Assembly (NCBI RefSeq): GCF_029211225.1
Contig: NZ_JARGEM010000004.1
Coordinates: 1-64,000, forward strand
Direction of reading: 5' to 3'
Origin: Antiquaquibacter metalliresistens
GTDB taxonomy: Bacteria > Actinomycetota > Actinomycetes > Actinomycetales > Microbacteriaceae
Length of the DNA: 64,000 nt
Shown here piece after piece: positions 15,608 through 22,316 of the stretch. Both the position numbers and the translations under genes were made by a program. Each line of letters begins with the position of its first letter. Position 1 is the first letter of the stretch. Under the pieces are notes generated by a model. The model had not been told where the DNA came from and ran no database searches. It was given only the letters and a program-made list of their open reading frames with translations.

Positions 15608-15695
15608 TGGCGGAGAATGGGGGATTCGAACCCCCGAGGGCTTGCACCCAACACGCTTTCCAAGCGTGCGCCATAGGCCACTAGGCGAATTCTCC
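15608..15695 (-). tRNA. tRNA-Ser (GGA)
   Basis: An 88-base serine tRNA with encoded CCA. The acceptor stem pairs GGAGAAT with ATTCTCC. The anticodon stem CACGC/GCGTG closes the loop TTGGAAA with anticodon GGA. A long variable arm, as required for serine, precedes the T arm, which contains GGTTCGAATC. Confidence 0.97.
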
Positions 15696-15751
15696 CGGAG
15701 CTTCGGCGACGTGGCCGAAGACCTCAAGGAATCATAGCGGTACAATCGTGG

Positions 15752-15842
15752 AGGCTCCTCGCGTGGCGCCATCCAGGCCAACTCCCCCAGGGCGGAAACG
15801 CAGCAAGGGTAACCGGGCTCTGGCGGGTGCGCGAGGGGCCGT
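15752..15842 (+). ncRNA. ffs: Small signal recognition particle RNA (4.5S type)
   Basis: The conserved SRP domain is seen: CAGGGCGGAAACGCAGCA followed by AGGGTAACCGGGCTCTGG. The outer helix pairs GGCTCCTCGCG (15753-15763) with CGCGAGGGGCC (15830-15840). A -10 box TACAAT at 15741-15746 fits transcription from about 15752. The RNA forms the core of the signal recognition particle with Ffh. It lies between tRNA-Ser and pta, while dnaX, its frequent neighbour in Gram-positives, is about 4.5 kb further on. Confidence 0.93.
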
Positions 15843-15871
15843 TACCGTTTCAATCGCCGTAGGCTGAGGTT

Positions 15872-17968
15872 GTGGCGAGTTCGGTGTACATCACCTCGGT
15901 CGAAGGTCATTCCGGCAAGTCCGCGATCGCGCTCGGGGTGCTCGACACCCTCGCGCACAGCGTCGAACGGGTGGGCGTGTTCCGCCCCATCGCGCGGTCG
16001 ACGGCCGAGCCCGACTTCGTGCTGGAGCTGCTGCTGGCGCACGACGGGGTCACGCTCGACTACGAGGAGTGCGTCGGGGTCACCTACGAAGAGGTGCACG
16101 AAGACCCGGATGCGGCCCTGTCGCGCATCGTCGAGCGATTCAAGTCCATCGAACGCCAGTGCGACGCCGTCGTCATCGTCGGTTCGGACTACACGGATGT
16201 CGCGACCCCGACCGAACTCGGATACAACGCCCGCATCGCAGCCAACCTCGGCGCCCCGGTGCTCGTCGTGCTCACCGGCCAGGCCACGGACGAGGGCCGG
16301 CCCCGCACGGTGCACGACCTGCAGCAGGTCGCGGAACTGATCCTGCCCGAGCTGACCGGCGCGCACGCCACGGTGCTCGCCGCGGTCGTCAACCGCGCGG
16401 ATCCCGATCACCTCGACGAGATCGTCGCCGCGATGGCCGCGACCTTCGGTACACCGGCATGGGCCGTTCCCGAGAGCGAGATCCTCGTCGCGCCGAGCGT
16501 GGAGTCGATCATGGAGGCCGTCGACGGGCTCCTCGTGCGCGGCGATCCTGCGCTCCTGGCCCGCGAGTCCCTCGGCACCGTCGTCGCCGGCATGGGCATG
16601 GAGAACGTGCTGCTGCGCCTGATCGAGGGCGGCGTGGTGGTCGTCGCCGGCGATCGCAGCGACGTGATCGTCGGCGCCCTCACGGCGAACGCCTCCACGA
16701 CGTTCCCCACCATCGCGGCCCTCGTGCTCAACGGCGGCTTCGAACTCTCTCCCGTGATCGAGCGGCTCGTGGGCGGTCTCGACGACACCTTGCCGATCAT
16801 CTCCACCGAACTCGGCACCTACGCCACCGCGCAGCGCATCGCGCAGGTGCGCGGGCGGCTCACCGCCGCATCGCAGCGCAAGGTCGACACCGCGCTCGCG
16901 CTCTTCGAGCAGCACGTCGATGCCGCGGTGCTCACCGACGCTATCGGTGCCGGCACCACCGCCGTCGTCACCCCGCTCATGTTCGAGTACGGCCTGCTGG
17001 AGCGCGCTCGCTCGGACCGCAAGCACATCGTGCTGCCCGAGGGCGACGACGACCGCATCCTGCAGGCGGCGGGCACACTGCTCAGCCGCAATGTCGTGGA
17101 GCTCACGATCCTCGGCGAGGAAACGGAGGTGCGCGCCCGTGCGGCCGCACTCGGTGTCGACATCGCGGCCGCGCGCATCCTGAGCCCGCTCGACCCCGAG
17201 CTGCACGAGCGGTTCGCCGCCGAGTACGCCAGGCTGCGGGCGCACAAGGGCGTCACGCTCGAGCAGGCCGCCGACATCGTGACGGATGTCTCGTACTTCG
17301 GCACCATGATGGTGCAGCTCGGCCTCGCCGACGGCATGGTCTCGGGCGCCGCGCACACCACCGCCCACACCATCACGCCGGCCCTGCAGTTCGTCAAGAC
17401 GGTGGAGGGGGTGAAGGTCGTCTCGAGCGTGTTCTTCATGGCGCTCGCCGACCGGGTGCTCGTCTACGGCGACTGCGCGATCGTGCCCGACCCGACCGCG
17501 GAGCAGCTGGCCGACATCGCGATCTCATCGGCCGCCACCGCGGCCAAGTTCGGCATCGAGCCGCGCATCGCGATGCTCTCGTACTCGACGGGGGAGTCCG
17601 GCACCGGCGCGGACGTCGACAAGGTGCGCGCCGCCACCGAGCTGGTGCGCTCCCGCCGACCCGACCTGCTCGTCGAGGGACCCATCCAGTACGACGCCGC
17701 GGCCGATGCCGCGGTCGCCGCGAAGAAGATGCCGGAATCCCGGGTGGCGGGGCAGGCCACGGTGTTCATCTTCCCCGACCTCAACACCGGCAACAACACC
17801 TACAAGGCGGTGCAGCGCAGCTCCGGCGCGGTCGCGATCGGTCCGGTGCTGCAGGGCCTGCGCAAGCCGGTGAACGACCTCTCTCGCGGTGCGCTCGTGC
17901 GCGACATCGTCAACACCGTCGCGATCACGGCCATTCAGGCGCAGTCGGCGGGGGAGGCGCTCGCGTGA
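15872..17968 (+). CDS. pta: Phosphate acetyltransferase (long form)
   Basis: A 698-residue enzyme converting acetyl-CoA and phosphate to acetyl phosphate and CoA. Domains in order: an N-terminal P-loop-like domain (SVEGHSGKSAIALGV), a central DRTGG-type regulatory domain, and the catalytic PTA domain from about residue 375, with LPEGDDDRILQAA and late SYSTGESGTG and PDLNTGNNTYKAVQR. The length matches the long class. The GTG start follows -10 TAGGCT (15860-15865) by six bases, a leaderless arrangement. It overlaps ackA, so the two are translated as a pair. Confidence 0.97.
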   Translation: MASSVYITSVEGHSGKSAIALGVLDTLAHSVERVGVFRPIARSTAEPDFVLELLLAHDGVTLDYEECVGVTYEEVHEDPDAALSRIVERFKSIERQCDAVVIVGSDYTDVATPTELGYNARIAANLGAPVLVVLTGQATDEGRPRTVHDLQQVAELILPELTGAHATVLAAVVNRADPDHLDEIVAAMAATFGTPAWAVPESEILVAPSVESIMEAVDGLLVRGDPALLARESLGTVVAGMGMENVLLRLIEGGVVVVAGDRSDVIVGALTANASTTFPTIAALVLNGGFELSPVIERLVGGLDDTLPIISTELGTYATAQRIAQVRGRLTAASQRKVDTALALFEQHVDAAVLTDAIGAGTTAVVTPLMFEYGLLERARSDRKHIVLPEGDDDRILQAAGTLLSRNVVELTILGEETEVRARAAALGVDIAAARILSPLDPELHERFAAEYARLRAHKGVTLEQAADIVTDVSYFGTMMVQLGLADGMVSGAAHTTAHTITPALQFVKTVEGVKVVSSVFFMALADRVLVYGDCAIVPDPTAEQLADIAISSAATAAKFGIEPRIAMLSYSTGESGTGADVDKVRAATELVRSRRPDLLVEGPIQYDAAADAAVAAKKMPESRVAGQATVFIFPDLNTGNNTYKAVQRSSGAVAIGPVLQGLRKPVNDLSRGALVRDIVNTVAITAIQAQSAGEALA

Positions 17969-19083
17969 GTCTCGTCTTCGTCGTCAACTCGGGCTCGTCA
18001 TCCATCAAGTACCAGCTCGTCGGCCCGGGCACCGAGGAGGTCGTGGTCGGCGGCATCATCGAGCGCATCGGCGAGCCGGGGCAGGTTCCCGACCACGCCG
18101 CGGGGATGCGGGAGGTGCTCGAGCGCATCGGCCCAGGTCGCGAGATCGCTGCGGTCGGTCACCGAGTGGTGCACGGCGGCTCCCGGTTCACCGAGGCGAC
18201 CCTCATCACGGACGAGGTGGAGCAGGCGATCGACGAGCTCTCCGCGCTCGCGCCGCTGCACAATCCGGCGAACCTGCTCGGCATCCGCGCCGCGCGGGCG
18301 GCGCTGCCCGGAGTGCCGAACGTGGCCGTCTTCGACACCGCGTTCCACCACACCCTGCCGCCCGAGTCGTACACCTACGCGATCGACGCGGCGCTCGCCG
18401 CGCAGCACCAGGTGCGTCGGTACGGATTCCACGGCACGTCGCACCAGTACGTCGCCCGGCAGACCGCGCTCTACCTCGGGCGACCGCTCGAGTCCCTGCG
18501 GCTCATCATCATGCACCTCGGCAACGGCGCATCGATCACGGCGGTGCGTGGCGGTGATTCGATCGACACCTCGATGGGCCTCACACCCCTCGAGGGACTC
18601 GTCATGGGCACGCGTTCGGGCGACCTCGATGCCGGCGTCATCTTCCACCTCGCCCGTCAAGCCGGCCTCGGCATCGACGAGCTCGACGATCTGCTCAACC
18701 GACGCAGCGGACTGCTGGGACTCACCGGCACCGGTGACATGCGCGATGTGCAGGAGGCGGCATCGAACGGCGACGAGGCGGCGCTGGCCGCGCTCGCGGT
18801 CTGGCGGCACCGCATCCGGCACTACATCGGCGCCTACCTCGCCGAACTCGGCGGGGTGGATGCCCTGGTCTTCACCGCGGGCATCGGCGAGAACAACGCG
18901 CTGCTGCGTCGTCGTGCGCTGGCCGGACTCGAGTTCCTCGGCATCGAGATCGACGACGACCGCAACGAACTCGCCTCGCGCCGGGCGCGCACCATCTCGC
19001 CCGAGGGTGCCGCGGTCGCGGTGCTCGTGGTGCCCACCAACGAAGAACTCGAGATCGCCCGCCAGAGCCTCGCGGTGGTCTGA
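17965..19083 (+). CDS. ackA: Acetate kinase
   Basis: A 372-residue kinase making ATP and acetate from acetyl phosphate and ADP. Signatures: VNSGSSSIKYQL at the N-terminus, GFHGTSHQYV, HLGNGASITAV and GTRSGDLDAG. The GTG start lies inside the stop of pta (GTGA overlap), so expression is coupled. With Pta it gives substrate-level ATP and acetate overflow; acs at 37457 works in the opposite sense. Confidence 0.97.
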   Translation: MSLVFVVNSGSSSIKYQLVGPGTEEVVVGGIIERIGEPGQVPDHAAGMREVLERIGPGREIAAVGHRVVHGGSRFTEATLITDEVEQAIDELSALAPLHNPANLLGIRAARAALPGVPNVAVFDTAFHHTLPPESYTYAIDAALAAQHQVRRYGFHGTSHQYVARQTALYLGRPLESLRLIIMHLGNGASITAVRGGDSIDTSMGLTPLEGLVMGTRSGDLDAGVIFHLARQAGLGIDELDDLLNRRSGLLGLTGTGDMRDVQEAASNGDEAALAALAVWRHRIRHYIGAYLAELGGVDALVFTAGIGENNALLRRRALAGLEFLGIEIDDDRNELASRRARTISPEGAAVAVLVVPTNEELEIARQSLAVV

Positions 19084-19142: not shown

Positions 19143-19220
19143 GTGCGCAACCGCACGGATTCGGGGCGGCACGCCGCGCGCGGCCGGCCGACACGCGGCA
19201 TCCGGCCTGAATCCGTGCAG
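19143..19220 (+). repeat. 78-bp palindromic repeat, copy A (left of the DUF559 gene)
   Basis: The element starts GTGCGCAACCGCACGGAT and ends GAATCCGTGCAG. GCACGGATTC (19153-19162) and GAATCCGTGC (19209-19218) are exact inverted repeats, so the whole can fold as a long hairpin. Copy B at 20172-20249 has the same length, the same two ends (17 of 18 and 12 of 12 bases) and the same orientation; the GC-rich middle differs. Confidence 0.75.
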
Positions 19221-19238
19221 CCCCGTACGCCGCGCGAG

Positions 19239-20060
19239 CTACCGTCGCCGAGCATCCGCAACCATGCGCTCGATCGCGGCGAGGGTGTCGGGCCAACTGT
19301 CGAACACGTGCGGGGAGCCGAGCCGCAGCACCCGGATGCCCCAGCTCTCGATCGTGATGTCCTTGCTGCGGTCCGCGATGAACGTCGCCTCATGGAATTG
19401 CCTGCCGTCGGTCTCGACACCCACGCATTCGTCGACGAGCAGATCGAGCGGTCCGGCACCGGGGACGATCGCCTGCGTGCGAACACGGTGTCCGGCATCC
19501 TGCAGTCTGAGCCTCGCGTGCGTCTCCAGCCCGGACTGGGCACCACGGTCCAACCGGGCGAGGGTCGCCCGCATCCAACGCGGGGCGAGCTCCCGCAACC
19601 GGCGCAGGCCGCGCTCGTCCAATTCGCGAAGGTGCAGGGCCGACTCGATGCAGGCGAGGGCGTCGTCGTGGTCGAGGCAGCGCATCGCCTGCAGCAGGGC
19701 ATCCACGATCGACACCTCGAGTGGATGCTCGCCCGTCTCGTGTCGCCCGGCCCAGTGCACGACGGCTCCGATCGGCACGGCGCCGTGGTGGCGCCCCGCC
19801 TGCGCGCGCAGGTGCAGTCGGGCGTCGCGGATGCCGGACCACACCCCGCGCCGGGCCAGAGCGGTGACGCAATCGAGCCGGAGGCCCGCTCGCGCCGCAG
19901 TGAGTTGCACGGGTTCGAGGTGCGGGCATGCGTACACACCGCGCGCGGGCCGGAGGGCCCGCCCGACGGTAACGGCCCTCGCGAGCTCCCGCCGCGTGAG
20001 TCCGGCGGCGAGCAGGTCGCGCGTCGAGGCGACGTGGCCGAGGGAGCACAGGCGGTGCAT
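19239..20060 (-). CDS. DUF559 (Vsr/restriction-nuclease fold) protein with N-terminal AbiEi-like helix-turn-helix
   Basis: A 273-residue protein. The N-terminus (VASTRDLLAAGLTRRELARAV) resembles the winged-helix domain of AbiEi-type regulators. The C-terminal third is DUF559, a PD-(D/E)XK-like nuclease fold: Asp206 in PLDLLVDE, Glu216 and Asp218 in GVETDGRQFH, and RSKDITIESWGIRVLRLG near the end. No antitoxin or methylase lies beside it. ATG 20060 is preceded six bases away by GAGGCT, close to the -10 boxes used here; the longer GTG form from 20132 is possible. It is bracketed by two palindromic repeats. Whether it cuts DNA is untested; family function is mostly unknown. Confidence 0.75.
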   Translation of the reverse strand: MHRLCSLGHVASTRDLLAAGLTRRELARAVTVGRALRPARGVYACPHLEPVQLTAARAGLRLDCVTALARRGVWSGIRDARLHLRAQAGRHHGAVPIGAVVHWAGRHETGEHPLEVSIVDALLQAMRCLDHDDALACIESALHLRELDERGLRRLRELAPRWMRATLARLDRGAQSGLETHARLRLQDAGHRVRTQAIVPGAGPLDLLVDECVGVETDGRQFHEATFIADRSKDITIESWGIRVLRLGSPHVFDSWPDTLAAIERMVADARRR

Positions 20061-20171
20061 CCGCCCAGCCTCGCGGGACGGATGCCAGCGCGCGTTCCCC
20101 GGCGGCGATCGGTGTCGTTCGCGCGCCTGCACTCGCGGTGGGCGAGAGGCCCCGGCATCGACGTGGTCGCG

Positions 20172-20249
20172 GTGCGCAACTGCACGGATCGCGGCGCGGC
20201 GCGGGCGCGTCGGCGCGCGGGGGCGGCGAGCCGCGCCGAATCCGTGCAG
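20172..20249 (+). repeat. 78-bp palindromic repeat, copy B (right of the DUF559 gene)
   Basis: It starts GTGCGCAACTGCACGGAT and ends GAATCCGTGCAG. CTGCACGGAT (20180-20189) pairs with ATCCGTGCAG (20240-20249), and inside them CGGCGCGG (20192-20199) pairs with CCGCGCCG (20231-20238), giving a long stem with a small bulge. It is a direct repeat of copy A, 951 bases away. Confidence 0.75.
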
Positions 20250-20309: not shown

Positions 20310-22316
20310 GTGGTCGCTGCCCTGTACCGCCGTTACCGGCCGGAGACGTTCGCCGAGCTCATCGGCCAGTCGCAGGTGACCGATCCGCTGCGCACGGCGC
20401 TGCGCACCGACCGGGTCAACCACGCCTACCTGTTCAGCGGTCCGCGCGGCTGCGGCAAGACCACGTCGGCGCGCATCCTCGCCCGCTGCCTCAACTGCGC
20501 CGAGGGGCCGACGGATACGCCGTGCGGGGTGTGCCCCTCCTGCGTGGAGCTCAGTCGGGACGGCAGTGGCTCGCTGGACGTCGTGGAGATCGACGCGGCA
20601 TCCCACAACGGCGTCGACGACGCGCGGGACCTGCGCGAGCGCGCCGTGTTCGCCCCGGCGCGCGACCGGTTCAAGATCTTCATCCTCGACGAGGCGCACA
20701 TGGTCACGCCGCAGGGCTTCAATGCGCTGCTGAAGATCGTGGAAGAGCCGCCGGAGCACGTGAAGTTCATCTTCGCGACCACCGAGCCCGAGAAGGTCAT
20801 CGGCACGATCCGCTCGCGCACGCATCACTACCCGTTCCGGCTCGTGCCGCCCGCGCAGATGCTCGACTACGTGCAGCAGTTGTGCACGTCCGAGGGCATC
20901 GAGGTCGAGCCCGGTGTGCTGCCGCTCGTGGTGCGCGCCGGTGGCGGCTCGGTGCGCGACACGCTCAGCCTGCTCGACCAGCTCATGGCCGGCTCGGAGG
21001 CCCCGTCGGATTCGGGCACCGTGACGATCGAATACGAACGCGCGGTCGCCCTGCTCGGCTACACGCACGGCGCGTTGCTCGACGAGGTGGTCGAGGCCTT
21101 CGCCGCCCGGGATGCCGCGGCCGTCTTCTCCGCGATCGACCGCGTCATCCAGACCGGCCAGGACCCGCGGCGCTTCGTGGAGGACCTGCTCGAGCGACTG
21201 CGGGATCTCATCGTGGTCGCGGCGACCTCCGGCAATGCCGCGGCGGTGCTCCGGGGGGTTCCGCAGGACCAGCTCGACCGCATGACCGCGCAGGCGGCGA
21301 GCTTCGGTGCGGCCGAGCTCTCCAGGGCTGCGGATGCCGTCAACACCGCGCTCACGGAGATGACCGGCGCCACCTCGCCGCGACTGCACCTCGAGCTCAT
21401 GGCGGCGCGCATCCTGGTTCCGGCCAGCGACGACACGGAGCGCGGTGCCCTCGCGCGCGTGGAGCGGCTCGAGCGCCGCATCGGGGTCGCGGATGCACCG
21501 GCGCAGGCGACCCCGACCGCTCGACCCGATGCGGCACCGACGCGAGGCGAGGCGGTGCCCGAGCCAACCGTGGCGACGGAGCCGACGGTCTCGCGGGAGG
21601 CGGCCACGGCGCCTCCCGCGAAGCCGCCGGTCGCGGCGCCGAAACCGGTGGGCCCCGTGACGCTGCAGCACGTGAAGGACTCGTGGCTGGAGATCCTCGA
21701 CGTCGTCAAGGAGACCAAGCTCAACGCCTGGATGGTCGTCTACACGGCTCGCCCGCTCGAACTGCGCGACGGCAAGACCCTCGTGCTCTCGTTCCCGAGC
21801 CAGAAGGATGTCGACGCGCTCAAGCAGCCGGCGGCACCGGGCCAGGGCGTCGGCGAGCTGCTCAAGAAGGCGTTCGTGCAGGTGCTCGGTCTCGAGCCCG
21901 CGTTCATCGCCCGCGTGGATGCCGCGACCGCCCGCACCTCCGATGCCGAGGCCGCGCCCGCCGACCCCGCCCAGCCCCCCGCTGCCGCGCAGGCACCCGC
22001 CGAGACCGCGTCGTCGTCGCCCGCTGCGCAGCCGCCCGCCGCGCCGGCCGACCCCCCGCCCTCGGACGAGCCGCCGATGGACGAGCCGCCGGCCGACGAC
22101 TTCCCGCCCACCGAGAGCGAGGGCTGGGCGGTCGCCGCGATCCCGGACGCCGCGCCGGCCCCGGCCCCGCAGAAGCCCGAGGCGAAGGCCGTGGTGCCCA
22201 CCGCATCGAGCGAGCCGGCCCGCTACGGCGAGTCGGTCGTGCGCGAGCTGCTCGGCGCCAGCTTCATCGAGGAGCAGACCGTCGCGCCGCGCGTCGTACC
22301 GCGGGCGGAGGACTGA
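20310..22316 (+). CDS. dnaX: DNA polymerase III subunits gamma and tau
   Basis: A 668-residue clamp-loader ATPase. N-terminal [17 protein letters not shown] is the family opening. Walker A is GPRGCGKTT (44-52); zinc cysteines lie at about 63, 72, 75 and 78; Walker B is ILDEAHM; the SRC-type arginine region follows. Residues after about 400 are an Ala/Pro-rich linker and a tau-specific tail. GTG 20310 is six bases after -10 TACGCT (20298-20303), supporting this start over a much longer open frame. No frameshift signal for a separate gamma form was noticed. It overlaps recR by one base. Confidence 0.95.

Follow-up and report, generated by a model that had tools for sequence, protein, structure and literature searches.

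The window, by which we mean the whole stretch of 64,000 nucleotides analysed here, contains a single nuclease gene on the minus strand between ackA and dnaX. The gene is bracketed by two 78-bp repeats, an arrangement that the original prediction had described and that was confirmed by the sequence. The features of the locus are listed below by window position, strand, and content.

17884..19083, plus strand: ackA, acetate kinase, the left neighbour outside the unit (the start is our choice)
19143..19220, plus strand: left palindrome, on the 3' side of the gene, with outer tail GTGCGCAAC and core arms GCACGGATTC / GAATCCGTGC
19153..19218, no strand assigned: 66-bp palindrome core of the left copy, with inner GACACGC direct repeats (at most one mismatch) 22 bp apart
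19239..20132, minus strand: nuclease gene, encoding an AbiEi-like winged-helix module and an EDxHD/Vsr-type nuclease domain
20172..20249, plus strand: right palindrome, on the 5' side of the gene
20182..20247, no strand assigned: 66-bp palindrome core of the right copy, its middle without GACACGC repeats
20310..22316, plus strand: dnaX, the right neighbour outside the unit

The two palindromes share a 66-bp core of the form GCACGGAT..ATCCGTGC, and each of the 78-bp repeats folds as a single strand beyond 200 of 200 shuffles, in agreement with the hairpins that had been predicted. The genome of origin contains eight cores of 66 or 67 bp, six of them beyond the window, and two further cores with mismatches. 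A search of 27 genus genomes for the exact core pattern gave eight matches in this genome and two in G296 (53 and 60 bp). Two direct copies of GACACGC (at most one mismatch), 21–22 bp apart, were present in five of the eight cores; the left window core belongs to these five, and the right one has no copy. The same genome also has a family member with two in-frame stops, apparently a decayed paralogue (L034, G000 C23:413639), beside which the first scan detected no palindrome. A small bacterial SRP RNA lies at window positions 15750-15846 and adjoins a tRNA-Ser gene (15608-15695).

With the start used, the gene product has 297 amino acids; the true start is likely a later one, and the sequence has an ATG near 20060. 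In the model of the protein, the AbiEi-like winged-helix module comprises residues 19-195 and the nuclease domain residues 196-297, and the fold matches were to AbiEi and to I-Bth0305I/Vsr. A Pfam scan of 11 proteins of this kind returned AbiEi_4 and/or MTES_1575/DUF559. Residues E203, D230, and E240 are invariant in the first subfamily, to which the window gene belongs, and H247 and D254 are conserved in at least 90% of its members; all five counterparts are invariant in a second, homologous subfamily. The EDxHD/Vsr-fold domain carries conserved E, D, H, and D residues, which we take to be those of the EDxHD motif. The gene had been predicted to join an AbiEi-like part to a DUF559-fold nuclease, and the AbiEi and EDxHD/Vsr folds with their conserved residues agree with this description. 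The first subfamily was found in 80 of 120 Microbacteriaceae genomes and the second in 39 of 60.

Framing of the genes by matching palindromes

The pairing of palindromes around a gene was assessed by a strict test, in which palindromes to the left and right of the gene had to have the same 9-bp arm, with no more than one mismatch in total. By this test, 77 of 116 first-subfamily loci were framed by matching palindromes, as compared with 41 of 462 cross-locus pairs (loci sharing an arm type included), 1 of 116 shuffled flanks, and none in two sets of 55 same-locus control windows (0/55 and 0/55). These three comparisons ruled out a chance origin of the pairing. The second subfamily gave 17 of 30 loci against a null of 0/175. 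The arms match within a locus and often differ from gene to gene. The remaining 39 of the 116 loci failed the test, among them the orthologue in G006, whose right palindrome is good and whose left one is poor. The framing of 77 of 116 members also speaks against the notion that orthologues usually lack such flanks.

Hairpin searches gave a similar picture. In a set of 29 loci, the best hairpin with 16-bp arms had at least 14 matches in 36 of 58 flanks, whereas control windows and shuffles reached this value in 3 of 116 and 1 of 174 cases, respectively; this set includes one misplaced, clipped locus, L047. In another 88 loci (the clipped L093 dropped, and L086, which is identical to L053, counted separately), hairpins were found in 118 of 176 flanks and in 7 of 176 controls. 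Where hairpins were present on both sides (41 loci, counted in this set before L093 was dropped), 38 pairs shared at least 11 of 12 arm bases, versus 51 of 600 cross-locus pairs. In named genomes of Salinibacterium and other Microbacteriaceae, 15 of 17 loci passed, six of the 17 overlapping earlier loci; beyond the family, 4 of 9 loci passed, with wider flanks. The loci drawn from the first-subfamily search of the 120 family genomes were taken in score order among the matches listed, not at random. The 116-locus test covered loci other than the partial matches L034, L035, L065, and L071, the clipped L047, and L072-L086; the last group consists of duplicates and of loci from a search of the phylum, six of the latter being tested among the out-of-family loci. 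When clipped loci were retested, a pair was found in L047, L093, and L236 and none in L228. As a separate observation, a family member in another family of the order (L058, G014) is flanked by near-identical, near-perfect 76-bp hairpins at 1117-1192 and 2371-2446, unlike the other palindromes.

Solitary palindromes and the ackA-dnaX site

Palindromes also occur away from the genes. Exact AATTCAGGA palindromes were found in 15 of 120 family genomes, all of them within the 80 that carry the gene (P = 0.0014), and a backward control of the pattern gave no match in the 120 genomes. In ten of the 15 (G186, G187, G202, G204, G209, G240, G245, G248, G278, and G282), the arm of the gene examined is identical or differs by a single base. 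G193 and G267 hold one and seven such palindromes, respectively, though their sole first-subfamily gene has another arm; G193 also has eight second-subfamily matches. G243 has a single copy, and the two of its three genes that were examined both have other arms. This comparison of genes and arms covered the AATTCAGGA genomes other than G206 and G253. A second type, CATAACTCCTGCA, is present in 20 copies in G243 and 17 in G241, each of which has a gene framed by that arm. In the same count, palindromes with the AACTCCTGCA motif numbered 20 in G243, 17 in G241 (15 on both strands), and one in G270, and in each of these genomes the motif, or most of it, forms all or part of the arm of a gene; one-sided matches in G215 (four), G000 (one), and G173 (one) are probably due to chance. 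Palindromes of the type CTCAGGAGA were found in 9 of the 27 genomes of the genus.

Eight stretches with 29 palindromes were annotated with a crude ORF caller, by which 23 of the palindromes were intergenic, and no gene of either subfamily lay within 1.5 kb at 11 solitary-palindrome loci. At four sites compared by eye between species, the arms of solitary copies were kept near-perfectly, and the spacers and flanks had diverged; in the trio G284, G288, and G009, likewise judged by eye, the spacers barely align and the core is still 79-80 bp. Several of the predicted properties could be judged from these data. Copies are indeed scattered through gene-bearing genomes. Their clustering near the genes was seen for AATTCAGGA in G202, G278, and G186. 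Widespread repeats without a link to the gene were not found, as AATTCAGGA was confined to gene-bearing genomes, with the differing arms in G193, G267, and G243.

Some local arrangements were also recorded. In L213 (G202), palindromes occur three times in pairs, 145-157 bp from start to start (at most one mismatch per arm). At L257 1285-1585 (G001) and its counterpart L271 in G290, two palindromes lie about 120 bp apart with no intervening gene, and the same site in G010 and G009 has a single palindrome adjoining an ORF, which presumably encodes a NAD(P)-binding protein. This site (L257/L258/L270) was considered as a second comparison of solitary and full states and was set aside because the extra DNA holds another ORF, matching neither subfamily.

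The site between ackA and dnaX was compared across the genus with one genome per species. A full dnaX locus was obtained from 24 of the 27 genomes; 12 of these have an adjoining acetate kinase gene, and the other 12 have none within the 1.5 kb examined. Five of the 12 ackA-dnaX gaps are short (81-108 bp; G293, G004, G286, G288, and G011) and were palindrome-free by eye, two contain a palindrome without a gene (G297 and G295), and five bear a gene, namely orthologues of the window gene in G000, G006, and G007 and second-subfamily members in G291 and G285. In the strict pair test, G285 passed, and G291 and G006 failed with the windows used, though the G291 gene has visible palindromes on either side. 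Neither a target-site duplication nor an exact insertion boundary was found, the ackA-dnaX gaps being too diverged for boundaries to be placed. The AATTCAGGAG unit has the same surroundings in nine genomes of the genus, and its inheritance there is therefore mainly vertical. Since the unit compared occupies one conserved place in the genus, its movement must be rare or old. The original prediction had proposed a mobile or REP-like unit; the likeness to REP elements and RAYTs is strongly supported by our data, and neither present mobility, the one unit compared being syntenic, nor a spreading of the palindromes by the protein gained support.

Palindrome geometry and recognition of the arms

Dyad symmetry extends over approximately 20-23 bp per arm and then falls to near background. 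In 148 palindromes, pairing past about 20 bp was mostly 0.3-0.4, against a shifted-register background of 0.25-0.30, and a long continuous hairpin was accordingly rejected as the recognised form. The lengths of 75 AATTCAGGA copies fell into groups: 58 were 82-88 bp, ten 95-96 bp, four 105-106 bp, one 76 bp, and two 92-93 bp, with a best period of 10.4-10.5 bp. This set comprises the 75 listed of the 77 forward matches (the other two are in G240), and some of its members overlap (G282); the rejection of the uniform length null is chiefly due to the large share of copies of 82-88 bp. Of the copies fetched from G241, 11 of 15 were 83-85 bp, three were 73 bp, and one was 94 bp, and all 17 fetched of the 20 in G243 were 84 or 85 bp. 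Among 76 loci, the spans of a gene's two palindromes differed by 0-2 bp in 59, by 10-13 bp in 11, by 19-23 bp in four, and by 34 and 65 bp in one each; no difference of 3-9 or 14-18 bp occurred among the 76. The stepping of the lengths by helical turns, together with the near-background pairing of the spacers, argues for double-stranded recognition of inverted arms, and the arms are probably read on double-stranded DNA. The spacers fold slightly (mean z of -0.86, with 23% of 144 below -1.5), and given this folding, a hairpin may also have a role.

A loose match to CCCCGnAATnACGGGG (up to four mismatches, counted without a null) was present at the dyad in 15 of 17 copies in G243 and 9 of 15 in G241, and in the sole 94-bp copy its distances to the two arms are 42 and about 52 bp. 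A universal central motif was rejected, as good matches numbered only 10 among the 148 palindromes pooled, and half of these were at the dyad. In G282 and G245, arm motifs are repeated within palindromes, about 22 bp apart in G282, as though further binding sites had been gained two helical turns at a time.

The similarity of the arms was then related to that of the protein parts in 74 loci, L149 and L170 (the loci with span differences of 34 and 65 bp) being left out of the covariation and pairing analyses. Arm similarity correlated with identity in the winged-helix module (rho 0.43) and in the rest of the AbiEi part (rho 0.38) and weakly with the nuclease (rho 0.17). All three correlations exceeded 500 of 500 permutations, and in a joint rank regression, the weight of the nuclease was -0.01. 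The AbiEi half likely recognises the arms, a conclusion from sequence covariation that we hold more firmly than any other. The proposal that the DUF559-fold protein would recognise the palindromes is strongly supported by the matching pairs, the solitary copies, and the covariation of arms and winged helix.

A candidate nuclease-palindrome unit and its relatives

By sequence, each palindrome consists of a pair of inverted arms, some 20 bp long, separated by a spacer that keeps its length in phase with the DNA helix. We consider it about 60% probable that gene and palindromes constitute a selfish or domesticated chromosomal unit, that is, a nuclease gene with the predicted double-stranded sites of its protein, working like REPIN-RAYT. 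From covariation, fold, and phasing, the winged-helix modules of two protein copies probably read both arms from one side of the double helix. The probable site of action of the EDxHD/Vsr nuclease domains is inside the palindrome and may be its centre. Breaks there would be repaired by copying another palindrome or a gene-bearing unit; such copying would spread the palindromes and keep their arms alike, and it would sometimes convert a solitary site into a gene-bearing one or the reverse. The likeliest purpose would be nuclease-driven copying and maintenance. On balance, the units probably form a large, hitherto undescribed class in Microbacteriaceae and some other Actinomycetota, in which AbiEi-EDxHD fusions have helically phased, two-armed palindromic sites, as an independent counterpart of REPIN-RAYT. 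It is also rather likely that throughout this class, the palindrome of each fusion frames its gene and is scattered and kept alike along the chromosome, with a homing-type nuclease and double-stranded recognition.

Other explanations were weighed against the same data. The palindromes could be operators only, with the AbiEi-like part autoregulating as in type IV toxin-antitoxin systems and the flanking palindromes controlling the nuclease gene; solitary palindromes would then be a regulon or insulators, dispersed by ordinary duplication. According to the available excerpts of PMC7319586, the promoter of AbiEi contains two 23-bp inverted repeats to which the protein binds, bending the DNA, and this compares well with the dyad of 20-23 bp per arm, and the phasing would suit paired DNA-bound monomers. 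This reading is nevertheless unlikely, as a palindrome also lies downstream of the gene, the copies in G243 and G241 are numerous (20 and 17), 11 solitary loci lack either subfamily's gene within 1.5 kb, and the nuclease residues are conserved although pure repression would not need them. We regard as quite improbable a classical insertion sequence with palindromic ends and the nuclease as transposase, whose solitary copies would be deletion remnants or miniature derivatives. The gene does lie between two end-like repeats, the ackA-dnaX site shows short, solo, and full states, and copies occur near genes in G202, G278, and G186, but the compared unit is syntenic across the genus, target duplications were not seen, and tblastn with the window protein (E 1e-5) matched only three records among 72,556 from plasmids and one among 50,697 from phages.

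The least probable of the alternatives, to which we give very little credence, is an anti-phage or anti-invader role, in which the nuclease would be held at chromosomal palindromes and freed or activated by invaders. AbiEi belongs to abortive-infection systems, and PADLOC gave AbiEi matches for four of four proteins and an Hhe match for one. The window gene, however, lacks a neighbouring AbiEii toxin, and this role would not explain why the arms on either flank are specific to the gene.

Microbacteriaceae are bacteria of soil and sea, and many of these nuclease genes lie between matching palindromes. The selfish or domesticated unit proposed here would give a common protein family of unknown function a concrete target and a testable role. 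If the proposal is true, palindrome populations tended by nucleases arose more than once in bacteria, from unrelated enzymes. The natural pairs of protein and arm would be a ready code for DNA reading by winged helices and would supply new site-specific DNA-binding nucleases.

A search of open-licence PMC papers gave no description of such units, and the available parts of PMC3710099 (MTES_1575), PMC8861277 (DUF559), and PMC3733652 mention no link between a nuclease and palindromes. The MTES_1575 Vsr-type REase domain belongs by Pfam to the same nuclease domain family; it is, in the part of PMC3710099 available, a domain of a HEPN/helicase protein of about 2,000 residues from Microbacterium testaceum, and the terms 'palindrom' and 'AbiEi' are absent from that part. 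The AbiEi antitoxins (Streptococcus agalactiae AbiEi and Rv2827c) have a similar fold, but the protein here is fused to a nuclease, its sites lie on both sides of the gene and are scattered, and the inverted repeats are much farther apart than 3 or 13 bp; no AbiEii nucleotidyltransferase toxin adjoins the window gene, the one gene inspected in this respect, its neighbours being acetate kinase and dnaX. The nuclease fold is shared with I-Bth0305I, an EDxHD homing endonuclease, and with Vsr/DUF559 nucleases. The gene of an EDxHD homing endonuclease interrupts its own recognition site, whereas the chromosomal gene described here lies between two whole sites, with no site interrupted.

The likeness to REPIN-RAYT is broader. 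In the excerpts of PMC3116915 and PMC2817692, a RAYT gene lies between its own palindromes, with which it coevolves, and doublets with a set spacing are scattered; a REPIN has two conserved inverted ends around a spacer that varies but has a fixed length of 71 or 110 bp (PMC3116915), REP palindromes carry a GTAG or CGTC tag at one end (PMC3733652, in part), and RAYTs are related to IS200/IS605 transposases (PMC2817692). The present units share with this system a nuclease gene flanked on both sides by cognate palindromes (at the 77 and 17 loci above), scattered and mostly intergenic copies in gene-bearing genomes, palindromes that covary with the protein, and conserved inverted ends with a spacer. 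They differ in their lower copy numbers, in lengths that vary by helical turns (the word 'helical' being absent from the excerpts of PMC3116915), and in their enzyme, an AbiEi-EDxHD/Vsr nuclease fusion; the Pfam scan of 11 proteins found no IS200/IS605-type transposase domain. With an unrelated enzyme, the putative AbiEi-EDxHD units are not members of REPIN-RAYT, which by analogy of arrangement is their closest analogue.
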